Of a DNA stretch of 64,000 nt, positions 54,377-57,355 are shown piece after piece. Both the position numbers and the translations under genes were made by a program. Numbering within the stretch: position 1 is the stretch's first letter; the number at the start of each line of letters is the position of its first letter. The DNA comes from Luteimonas rhizosphaerae. Lineage in GTDB: Bacteria; Pseudomonadota; Gammaproteobacteria; Xanthomonadales; Xanthomonadaceae. The notes below the pieces were generated by a model. The model made no database searches. It was not told where the DNA came from and saw nothing but the letters and a program-made list of their open reading frames with translations. The stretch lies in contig NZ_NRQR01000002.1 in the NCBI RefSeq assembly GCF_002849595.1, positions 1-64,000 on the forward strand, in the 5' to 3' direction.

Positions 54377-54567
54377 GCCTGCGGCTCCATCGAGGGGATG
54401 CGGCGCGCGCGGTGCGGGACGACGGAGGGTGCGGACCGGGGTCGGAAGATGCTCATGCCTCGCATTCTAGCGATGCGCCCCGAGACGGGAAGATGGCGCG
54501 CGCCGGGAGCCGGGGAGTCCGGACAGCCGGGCGTTACGCTGGCGCTCCCCTTGCCGCGAGTCCTGCC

Positions 54568-55329
54568 ATGCAGCTGTCCGACCAGATCGTCCTCGTCACC
54601 GGCGCCGGCCGCGGTCTCGGCCGCGAGATTGCCCTCGCCTTCGCCCGCGAAGGCGCGCGCGTCGTCGTCAACTACCGGCGCAGTCGCGAGGCCGCCGAGG
54701 CGCTCGCCGCGCAGCTCGGCGACCGCGCGATCGCGCTGCAGGCCGATGTCACCGTCCGCGCCCAGGTCGACGCGCTCCATGCGCAGGCGCGCGCGTACTT
54801 CAACGCCGACCTCACGACGGTCGTCAACAACGCGCTGGTCGATTTCGCCTTCGACGGCGATGCGCGCGCGCATGCGGACACGATCGACTGGCCGGCATTC
54901 GCGACGCAGTTCGAAGGCAGCGTGCGCGGCGCTTTGAACACCGTGCAGGCCGCATTGCCGGGCATGCGCACGCAGCGCTTCGGCCGCGTCATCAACATCG
55001 GCACCAACCTGTTCCAGAACCCGGTCGTGCCCTACCACGACTACACCGCGGCCAAGGCCGCCCTGCTGTCGCTGACCCGCACGCTGGCCGGCGACCTCGG
55101 GCCGGACGGCATCACCGTCAACATGCTCTCCGGCGGCCTGCTGCGCACGACCGATGCCAGCGCCGCCACGCCGGACGCGGTGTTCGACTACATCGCCGCG
55201 AACACGCCGTTGCGCAGCGTGACCACGCCGGCCGAGTTCGCCGACGCCGCGCTTTTTTTCGCATCGCCCTGGTCGCGCGCGATCACCGGCCAGAACCTCG
55301 TCGTCGACGGCGGACTGGTCCGCGACTGA
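54568..55329 (+). CDS. Short-chain dehydrogenase, FabG-like
   Basis: 253 residues. NAD(P)-binding TGAGRGLG near residue 12, VVNNALVDF in place of the usual NNAG, and the active site YxxxK in YHDYTAAKAALL. Thirteen residues before the Tyr, where most members have Ser, is Thr (INIGTNLFQNP); this variant occurs in a subfamily of 3-oxoacyl-ACP-reductase-like proteins. A complete Rossmann fold and C-terminal GQNLVVDGG. Substrate unknown. It is the only plus-strand gene between dapB and recN and borders the module array on its 3' side. Confidence 0.88.
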   Translation: MQLSDQIVLVTGAGRGLGREIALAFAREGARVVVNYRRSREAAEALAAQLGDRAIALQADVTVRAQVDALHAQARAYFNADLTTVVNNALVDFAFDGDARAHADTIDWPAFATQFEGSVRGALNTVQAALPGMRTQRFGRVINIGTNLFQNPVVPYHDYTAAKAALLSLTRTLAGDLGPDGITVNMLSGGLLRTTDASAATPDAVFDYIAANTPLRSVTTPAEFADAALFFASPWSRAITGQNLVVDGGLVRD

Positions 55330-55383: not shown

Positions 55384-55560
55384 TGCGCAAGTCAAGCGTC
55401 ATCGGCGGCGCATCCGGACGCGCTGGCTAGATTTTGACCAGAGCTCCGCTCCCCGCTGGCGGCGCGCCTTCGGCCCGCTTATCCACACGTTTGTCATCCA
55501 ACCATCCACACCGGCTGTGGATGACGGCGCGGCTAGACCCTGCGGACACGCCGGTCAAGC
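55384..55560 (+). repeat. Module copy 1 of a spaced motif array with a DnaA box
   Basis: TGCGCAAGTCAAGC at 55384-55397 (GTCAA from 55391), TTGACCA at 55434-55440, perfect DnaA box TTATCCACA at 55479-55487, TTTGTC at 55490-55495, inverted repeat ATCCACA-ccggc-TGTGGAT at 55504-55522, CTAG at 55533-55536, closing GTCAAGC at 55554-55560. Spacer bases differ from the other copies; distances do not. Confidence 0.85.
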
Positions 55561-55630
55561 GGTGTGTTCGCGTCGCCCATGGGCGACATCGCGCATCGAT
55601 CGTTGGAAACCAGCGCGACCCCCAGACGCG

Positions 55631-55806
55631 TGCGCAGGTCAAGCCCGATGTGCCGCGCCTTCGCATCACCTGGTCAAGAATTGACCACTCGCAATGCGCA
55701 CGCTCGTGGCGCGGTTGCGGGCGCTTATCCACAGTTTTGTCGACTGACGATCCACACCGCCTGTGGAGAACCCGCGGACTAGCGCGTCGGCGATGCCGGG
55801 TCAAAC
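55631..55806 (+). repeat. Module copy 2 of a spaced motif array with a DnaA box
   Basis: TGCGCAGGTCAAGC at 55631-55644, TTGACCA at 55681-55687 (here part of the palindrome TGGTCAAGAATTGACCA, 55671-55687), DnaA box TTATCCACA at 55725-55733, TTTGTC at 55736-55741, inverted repeat TCCACA-ccgcc-TGTGGA at 55751-55767, CTAG at 55779-55782, closing GTCAAAC at 55800-55806. Confidence 0.85.
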
Positions 55807-55946
55807 GCCGCGTTGGATCCCGGCGATCGGGTCGACTGCCCGCAGCTCGCGCCGAGGCAAGCACGCACGCGACGAGCGGACGCAGGTCGAATCGGCGTCT
55901 GCGCGCGCCGCACGCGGTGCAGAGAATTCCGCCACACGCGCATGGC

Positions 55947-56123
55947 TGCGCAAGTCAAGCGCGACGATGGCCCGATTCCACGCCACTGGCGAAACTTTGA
56001 CCACCCTGGAACGACCCGGTCGCCGCACGGCTTCGTGACGCTTATCCACACCTTTGTCATTCGTTGATCCACACCTGCTGTGGATCGATCCGCGACTAGC
56101 CGACCCGGGCAACGCAGTCAAAC
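55947..56123 (+). repeat. Module copy 3 of a spaced motif array with a DnaA box
   Basis: TGCGCAAGTCAAGC at 55947-55960, TTGACCA at 55997-56003, DnaA box TTATCCACA at 56042-56050, TTTGTC at 56053-56058, inverted repeat ATCCACA-cctgc-TGTGGAT at 56067-56085, CTAG at 56096-56099, closing GTCAAAC at 56117-56123. The rest of 55330-56215, outside the three modules, shows no gene. Confidence 0.85.
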
Positions 56124-56164
56124 GCGACCCGGTCGACACGCGCCCCACGCGACCGCCGGATACG

Positions 56165-56191
56165 ACGACGCCCGGCATCGCCGGGCGTCGT
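56165..56191 (-). terminator. Terminator after dnaJ
   Basis: ACGACGCCCGGC at 56165-56176 and GCCGGGCGTCGT at 56180-56191 form a perfect 12-bp stem with an ATC loop, 24 bases beyond the dnaJ stop on the minus strand. No T-run follows. Confidence 0.75.
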
Positions 56192-56215
56192 GGTGTTGAA
56201 GCGAGTGACGTGCGC

Positions 56216-57355
56216 TCAGGAGGTCATGCGTTCCCAGAAGCTCTTGACGCCGTCGACGAAGGTGCTCGAACGCGGCGAATGCCGGCGTGCGTTCTCGCCC
56301 GTGAACGTCGCCTCGAACTGGTCGAGCAGCTCGCGCTGGTCCGACGTCAGGTTGACCGGCGTTTCCACGACGACCTTGCAGTACAGGTCGCCCGACGCGC
56401 GGCTGCGGACCGACTTGACGCCCTTGTCGCGCAGACGGAACACCTTGCCGGTCTGGGTCTCGGCCGGCACGCGGATCTCGGCCTCGCCGCCCAGCGTGGG
56501 CACGCGGACCGTGGCGCCGAGCGCGGCCTGCGACAGCCGGATCGGCACTTCGCAGTGCAGGTCGTCGCCATCGCGTTCGAAGATCGGATGCGGACGCACG
56601 CGCACTTCGACGTAGAGGTCGCCCGGCGGCGAGCCGGCCGGCCCGGCCTCGCCCTCGCCGGTCAGGCGGATGCGATCGCCCGAATCGACGCCGGACGGAA
56701 TCTTGACCGACAGGACCTTCTCTTCCTCGACCCGGCCGGCGCCGTGGCAGGACTTGCACGGGTGGGCGATGATCTGCCCCTGCCCGCCGCAGTGCGGACA
56801 CGCCTGCTGCATCGTGAAGATGCCGCGCTGCATGCGCACCTGGCCGCGGCCCGCGCACGTCGAACAGGTCTCGCGCCGACCGTCTTCCGAGCCCGTGCCC
56901 TTGCACTCGCCGCAGCCGACCAGCGTCGGCATCTCGATGCGCTTCTCGACGCCGGCCACGGCTTCCTCAAGATCCAGCTCCATCACGTAGCCGACATCGG
57001 CGCCGCGACGCGGACCGCCGCGCCCGCCGGCGCCCGCGCCGAAGATGTTGCCGAAGATGTCGCCGAAGATGTCGCCCATGTCGGCACCACCGCCGAAGCC
57101 GGGGCCTGCATTGCCGCCGCCCATGCCGTGCTCGAACGCGGCGTGGCCATGCTGGTCGTACATGCGGCGCTTGCCGCCGTCCGACAGCACTTCATAGGCT
57201 TCCTTGCACTCCTTGAACGCAGCCTCGGCATTGGCATCGCCGGGATTGCGGTCGGGGTGGTGCTTCATCGCGCAGCGGCGATAGGCCTTCTTGAGTTCGT
57301 CCTCGCTGGCGCTGCGGGTGACACCGAGCACCTCGTAATAGTCGCGTTTGCTCAT
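56216..57355 (-). CDS. dnaJ: Co-chaperone DnaJ
   Basis: 379 residues. J-domain with HPD ([12 protein letters not shown]) at residues 1-70, Gly/Phe-rich linker, four CxxCxGxG zinc repeats ([32 protein letters not shown]) and the substrate-binding C-terminal beta domains ([20 protein letters not shown]). Stimulates DnaK ATPase and delivers substrates. Separated from dnaK by 144 bases that hold hairpins, so its transcript level may be tuned there. Confidence 0.97.

Follow-up and report, generated by a model that had tools for sequence, protein, structure and literature searches.

Between the 3' ends of dnaJ and a convergent SDR oxidoreductase gene of Luteimonas rhizosphaerae lies an array of three noncoding copies of one fixed layout, and we consider it fairly probable that these copies are three DARS-type DnaA-control sites that would recharge ADP-DnaA, probably with the aid of Fis. 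The array sits inside an 886-base gap, faced from both sides by gene ends, in the stretch of 64,000 nucleotides of contig NZ_NRQR01000002.1 that was analyzed here (the window). Geometry, conservation, family, copy number and position, as well as the layout that the array has in common with a standard site, can be read from the sequence itself. We call the array DARS-like rather than a member of DARS, since its gap between boxes II and III differs from that of the E. coli sites and an IHF site of the DARS2 type was not found.

Three copies in the dnaJ-SDR gap

Read on the minus strand, each copy consists of DnaA box I, 5 bp, an inverted box II, 14 bp, box III, a spacer and a palindrome (Table 1). 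Box III is an exact TTATCCACA in each of the three copies, and with at most one mismatch this sequence occurs eight times in the window against 1.84 expected, a number that none of 100 shuffles reached. A 43-base core pattern with up to three mismatches finds three matches in the whole 3.64-Mb genome, all in the array, with none for the reversed control, and a profile search of the genome recovers the same three copies at E values of 5e-19 to 7e-17. The next-best profile match (E 0.0175) overlaps copy 1 on the opposite strand, and neither the strict pattern nor the profile found a further copy in the genome. The dnaA gene lies on a different contig from the array.

The initial annotation had described three copies with a set of motifs in fixed order, all of which we reproduced exactly together with its start-to-start distances: 43, 43 and 43 from GTCAA to TTGACCA; 45, 44 and 45 from TTGACCA to the DnaA box; and, identically in all three copies, 11 from that box to TTTGTC, 25 from the box to the inverted repeat, 29 from the repeat to CTAG and 50 from the repeat to the closing GTCAA. 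Its statement that the sequence between motifs is not conserved holds for two pairs of copies, which agree at 15/45 and 16/45 spacer positions, and is loose for the third pair (27/45); the motifs agree at 30-31 of 34 positions. A feature beyond that description is a 17-bp palindrome in each copy, TGG-N11-CCA, with TTGACCA as its right half. The proposal of a second protein on GTCAA/TTGAC had merged two things, a palindrome half that is family-wide and CTTGAC flanks that belong to genus-type copies. These outer motifs (TTGAC, the GCGCA flank and CTAG) are real at the genus level. Among 39 copies from 17 loci picked as belonging to the window's genus or alike, with positions counted from the TCCACA of box I, a proximal TTGAC stands at -37 (22 counts) or -36 (10), a distal CTTGAY-GCGCA flank at +123/+124 in 23 copies, and CTAG at -15 in 16, and the outer-flank columns are not conserved in the family-wide profile.

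Table 1. Features of the array and its flanking genes, in window positions.
Feature	Position	Strand	Remarks
SDR oxidoreductase gene	54412..55329	+	flanking; 3' end toward array
Copy 1, module	55384..55558	-	box I to palindrome reads on minus strand
Copy 1, distal flank	55384..55397	-	GCTTGAC-TGCGCA type (TGCGCAAGTCAAGC on +)
Copy 1, Fis-type palindrome	55424..55440		TGG-N11-CCA; 6/6 to GNNYANNNNNTRNNC
Copy 1, DnaA box III	55479..55487	+	TTATCCACA
Copy 1, DnaA box II	55502..55510	+	7/9 to TTATCCACA
Copy 1, DnaA box I	55516..55524	-	head-to-head with box II, 5-bp gap
Copy 1, CTAG	55533..55536
Copy 1, proximal flank TTGAC	55554..55558	-	closing GTCAA
Copy 2, module	55631..55804	-
Copy 2, Fis-type palindrome	55671..55687		6/6 to Fis consensus
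Copy 2, DnaA box III	55725..55733	+
Copy 2, DnaA box II	55748..55756	+
Copy 2, DnaA box I	55762..55770	-
Copy 3, module	55947..56121	-
Copy 3, Fis-type palindrome	55987..56003		5/6 to Fis consensus
Copy 3, DnaA box III	56042..56050	+
Copy 3, DnaA box II	56065..56073	+
Copy 3, DnaA box I	56079..56087	-
dnaJ	56216..57355	-	flanking; 3' end toward array

DnaA regulates promoters in E. coli, according to passages of the literature, and the array could on that precedent be a DnaA-dependent promoter region for dnaJ-dnaK or the SDR gene. The array is downstream of both flanking genes, however, a scan of its region for E. coli-type promoters returned no promoter-like site, and arrays at other loci have different neighbours, which together make this reading highly improbable. 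A terminator scan of the same region gave one terminator-like site against 0.7 expected. Separately, window positions 56162-56194, past copy 3 and before the 3' end of dnaJ, form a strong inverted repeat with 93% complementarity and a 3-nt loop; it may be a terminator that keeps transcription out of the array. An auxiliary origin, one of the options raised initially, was ruled out as unlikely for want of an AT-rich unwinding element: the dnaJ-SDR gap is 66.6% GC, and its lowest 40-nt window is still 45% GC.

Core geometry, the priA-linked site and the palindrome

Passages of reviews describe DARS box I as opposed to boxes II and III, with the same spacing in DARS1 and DARS2, and name the head-to-head box I/II pair as characteristic of DARS and functionally essential. 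When the DARS1 and DARS2 regions of E. coli K-12 were scanned for box I, 5 bp and an inverted box II, with box III allowed at a gap of 0-19, each region yielded exactly one site, between bioD and uvrB for DARS1 and in mutH-ygdT for DARS2, and both had a box II-III gap of 3. Each window copy has three DnaA boxes, of which box I faces the opposite way from the other two, and 5 bp separate the head-to-head pair in all three copies; their box II-III gap is 14 bp rather than 3 bp. The array thus shares the essential box I/II pair exactly and carries box III 11 bp, or one helical turn, further out. The initial annotation knew of no described element with this layout, which is only partly true, the core layout being that of DARS.

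The 5-bp gap also emerges when it is left free. A search of 24 genomes for head-to-head boxes at gaps of 0-30, with counts taken from the 18 genomes listed in full, placed 63 of 105 pairs at gap 5 and 24 at gap 28, the latter being box III to box I; the remaining 18 were spread over ten of the 29 other gap lengths. The eight of these 18 genomes that lack a strict match had 15 places at gap 5 and 10 elsewhere. At 15 of 20 loci with gap-5 places outside strict copies, box III stands at gap 3, as in E. coli. This standard core, with at most one mismatch, was found in 191/200 genomes of the order, usually once, and never in the reversed control. All 24 complete genomes have one such core, which lies at 0.17-0.37 of the dnaA-to-terminus distance, with genome sizes partly rounded, and points with the replication fork in 24/24. 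A single protein cluster, two representatives of which are PriA by NCBIfam, flanks the core, by rough gene calls, at 34/34 loci examined, including that of the window's genome, where the only standard core lies beside priA on another contig (G000:C33:103801-103832, locus L153) with a box II-III gap of 3 bp and a palindrome at +85. Several genomes of families f8 and f9 have two to four standard cores rather than one.

The standard core has the box I/II geometry of the array and, in most sites of the family, the palindrome at equal distance; it differs in its box III gap of 3 and in that its boxes I and II are perfect while box III is the weaker one, the reverse of the array. The array copies look like a derivative of the priA-linked standard site in which box III was moved outward and the unit multiplied. 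In nine genomes compared, standard site and array are 7-11 kb apart in four and at least 0.49 Mb apart in the other five; the four close pairs (G476, G479, G454 and G482) are from the second family.

In the three window copies the palindrome begins at +84, +83 and +84 relative to box I. Among 139 distinct window-type copies, TGG-N11-CCA occurs at the matching place in 97, at +85 in 71 of them, with 0 to 25 copies for other palindrome spacings. The standard sites were chosen by their boxes alone, without reference to the palindrome (45 loci, minus 5 without a standard core and with 3 duplicates merged, leaving 37), and 29/37 have it at +84..+86, counted from where box I begins, with 26 of these at +85; spacings of N6-N10, N12 and N13 are absent from the region, and N14, N15 and N16 occur 1, 1 and 4 times. 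The exact palindrome is present in 27/27 standard sites of the window's family and in 2/10 of the second family, which accounts for all 8 standard sites without it and in which it looks degenerate. Since the palindrome keeps its place in both types of site, its distance is kept from boxes I and II despite the shift of box III, and the palindrome shared at 84-86 bp means that the standard and shifted types are probably related. Loci here were picked by boxes, so box columns in family-wide alignments are invariant by construction, and our statements about spacing rest on the free-gap search and on the palindrome counts in window-type and standard sites. For other families of gammaproteobacteria we looked at 20 of 25 listed profile places. 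Nine of the 20 combine a box III at gap 3 (at least 6/8) with a palindrome of 10-12/12 at +84..+86, and 6 have neither, these palindrome scores being biased by a model that itself contains the palindrome.

The palindrome fits the Fis consensus GNNYANNNNNTRNNC quoted in a passage of PMC4585315 and is a candidate Fis site. Matches of 6/6 occur at +81..+84 from the box I TCCACA in 40/139 copies and of 5/6 in 59/139, so that 99/139 reach at least 5/6 against 5.7% of control windows (6/6 in 0.3%, 5/6 in 5.4%). The six-position consensus is loose, with a mean of 4.32/6 at the palindrome versus 4.24 at the box I/II region. Against a longer, 13-position form of the Fis consensus the palindrome leads clearly, at 8.65/13 versus 6.48 for the next region. 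All 28 genomes tested have a Fis homologue, whether arrays are present or absent. Another dimeric protein is possible, because GG/CC are conserved outside the Fis positions, CG often replaces YA (left halves are CG in 48 of 139 copies and TC in 33) and the consensus is loose. IHF was dropped as a candidate: no IHF consensus stands out in the array copies, with at least 8/9 positions matched in only 2 and 1 of 139 copies on the two strands, and DARS1 has no 8/9 IHF match either.

Inverted repeats at fixed spacing could also belong to a structured RNA, and the palindrome halves do match above expectation at two positions (59 vs 45.9 and 54 vs 39.3 of 139). Within the 139 ungapped copies, however, the halves are often unpaired: a left CG is joined to a right half of TC type in 21 copies and of TG type in 14, while TC/TC occurs in 26. 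Halves that are often mismatched yet matched above expectation are more readily explained by the binding site of a dimer than by a stem in an RNA. There is no Rfam match or E. coli-type promoter-like site, and the consensus fold of 54 diverse copies, a check proposed with the original description, consists of the box I/II stem alone, which is fixed by the selection of copies and shows no compensatory change. We find the RNA reading scarcely credible. The 5-bp head-to-head boxes, the near-fixed Fis-type palindrome and, in relatives, spacing kept while spacers drift instead support the initial suggestion of a multi-protein DNA complex, and the same evidence speaks for its DARS-like option.

Distribution, position and age in relatives

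The xanthomonad pattern search that the initial annotation had proposed found the strict pattern, with at most three mismatches, in 102/297 genomes of the family and 6/18 of the window's genus, and the reversed control had no match in the listed rows. Arrays of this kind are not essential, because 12/18 genomes of the genus lack a strict match and the distribution is patchy. A scan of named genomes returned at least 118 stretches, and the 80 among the matches listed were all from Xanthomonas, Stenotrophomonas, Pseudoxanthomonas, Luteimonas or Lysobacteraceae/Lysobacterales. A sequence-only profile built from the 54 diverse copies detected at least 209/298 genomes of the order at E ≤0.001, a lower bound since at most 12 candidates were scored per genome, and 27/323 genomes of the class at E ≤1e-4, 5 of the 27 being in the order. 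Where a genome from outside the two main families gave a single weak profile hit, that hit may be a standard site.

In 24 complete genomes the profile gave 145 matches, some of them partial, at 73 loci with a median position of 0.75 of the dnaA-to-terminus distance, in which loci shared by descent are counted repeatedly and genome sizes are partly rounded. The profile matched 15 times in genome G476 and 12 times in G479, some of these matches being partial, and the copies there follow one another closely in tandem, at distances of about 113-233 bp. If the strong box III merely held DnaA off oriC, without nucleotide exchange, the array would be a titration site, for which the perfect TTATCCACA in each copy and the up to 15 matches per genome would be well suited. 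Titration, however, requires no fixed head-to-head gap, no near-fixed palindrome and no kept phase of box III, and it would be less effective at the low dosage of the terminus half, where 59/73 loci lie. We regard titration as unlikely.

The same 73 loci are oriented with the fork in 60 cases, against it in 12 and mixed in one, and among the nearest flanking genes of 40 loci, by rough gene calls, 42 run with the fork and 38 against it, without a comparable bias. Together with the 24/24 standard sites pointing with the fork, these counts could indicate a polar, replication-oriented site near the terminus, either a fork barrier or a guide for segregation or a translocase. When the 40 loci, from 15 of these genomes, are grouped by shared neighbours, though, 11 groups run with the fork, 4 against and 2 are mixed (p 0.12), and symmetric inversions keep such an orientation by descent. 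Moreover, E. coli DARS2, on the strand given by the K-12 scan, points against its own fork in view of the position of oriC. The fork orientation of the arrays, strong in raw counts and not significant after grouping, is a lead only; the statistics do not establish the segregation role suggested initially, and we think a polar site very unlikely.

Copy number that differs among species, multiple copies and a location between convergent genes at 20/40 loci (by a rough gene caller at relatives' loci) would suit a passive or mobile intergenic repeat of the REP or MITE kind that carries DnaA-box-like motifs by chance. Against such a repeat, motif geometry is kept while spacers drift, positional counterparts are conserved between species, many loci, by rough gene calls, have common neighbours across genomes, and there is a single-copy relative with a constant place beside one gene. 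The relaxed exact pattern matched 0 viral contigs and blastn gave 0 plasmid matches, on which grounds a phage or plasmid element was dropped as well; a mobile repeat seems to us very unlikely indeed. The age of the copies can be judged from their spacers. Among relatives' arrays at the dnaJ locus, three species have four copies each, and positional counterparts share 68-91% of spacer columns, with the best counterparts in two further species at 0.52-0.65. Copies inside any of six dnaJ-locus arrays share at most 48%, and the relatives' copies reach at most 0.46 to their own array. By this comparison the relatives' copies are old duplicates in which mainly the motifs were kept. The three window copies have no clear positional counterparts (at most 0.48 either way).

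Proposed mechanism and comparison with E. coli sites

If the array copies are DARS-type sites, they would by analogy with E. coli hold ADP-DnaA in head-to-head orientation on their boxes I and II. This ADP-DnaA would be steadied by DnaA at the strong box III and, at the palindrome some 84 bp away, by Fis or a different dimeric protein. The bound DnaA would then release ADP, leave as apo-DnaA and reload ATP, and copy number together with late replication could set the amount of ATP-DnaA that is regenerated ahead of the next initiation. We infer from the analogy that DnaA and Fis bind, that ADP is released and that initiation timing is affected.

Among the open-licence papers listed by our searches we found no description of such elements in Xanthomonas and relatives, nor of the box III-shifted multicopy form or of the palindrome at +85. 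One review, with reference to Fujimitsu et al. 2009, states that many proteobacteria have conserved sequences resembling DARS1 and DARS2, and the standard priA-linked site may already be known. DnaA reactivation has so far been studied mainly at two single-copy E. coli sites, and a lineage with one standard site at priA and an amplified, shifted variant is a natural test of how initiation timing depends on the spacing of box III, on the number of copies and on where in the chromosome they lie. The +85 palindrome was found in sites that had been selected regardless of it and extends the DARS layout by one specific, testable element.

Genomic context offers no link to E. coli: searches with the DARS neighbours UvrB, BioD, YbhK, MutH, RppH and YgdQ gave no match at the array loci searched, and synteny was dropped as a lead, the only matches among these neighbour queries being of PtsP type (23-26% identity, five loci). 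The likeness lies in the sites themselves. DARS1 has the same head-to-head boxes I and II with a 5-bp gap and a box III oriented as box II, it is of about equal size (101 bp in a published passage), and at +85 from box I it has TGGCG, which matches the xanthomonad palindrome at 8/12, a score that 1.7% of positions in 11.6 kb of E. coli background equal. It differs in its box II-III gap of 3 versus 14 in the array, in being single-copy and in the degenerate right half of its palindrome. The palindrome may also be relevant to the accessory flank of DARS1, whose role in vivo is undetermined according to a 2017 review. According to a passage of one paper, the flank needed in vitro comprises 42 bp after the last box. 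If this flank starts right after box III, it may end near +76, short of +85.

One can tentatively extend the DARS-type reading to the ancestry of these sites. In that case gammaproteobacterial DARS would originally have had a Fis-type palindrome at a fixed distance of about 85 bp from box I, and the half-site of DARS1 would be what is left of it. Xanthomonads would have gained a second, box III-shifted form, multiplied into late-replicating, fork-oriented arrays whose own replication would release ATP-DnaA for the following round in a pulse set by their dosage. We hold this extension to be possible and rather unlikely; we weigh it lower because the 42-bp flank of DARS1 may stop short of +85.

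DARS2 has the same core of boxes I, II and III as DARS1 and, in published passages, needs Fis. It has TGGCGAAAGATCAACCA at +185, a 10/12 match to the palindrome that is the only match of at least 9/12 in the 610 bases scanned and a score reached by 0.05% of background positions. A consensus DnaA box stands near it, at +211, and the essential Fis site of DARS2, FBS2-3, is placed beside DnaA box V in a published passage; TGGCGAAAGATCAACCA is probably FBS2-3. In DARS2, however, the palindrome is 100 bp further out, the site is single-copy, and IHF is needed according to a published passage, whereas no IHF site was seen in the array copies. The third E. coli element, datA, can be set beside the array by published description only: both are noncoding clusters of DnaA boxes, that of datA acting with a nucleoid protein, but datA works through IHF and ATP-DnaA, by hydrolysis, where the array would recharge ADP-DnaA.
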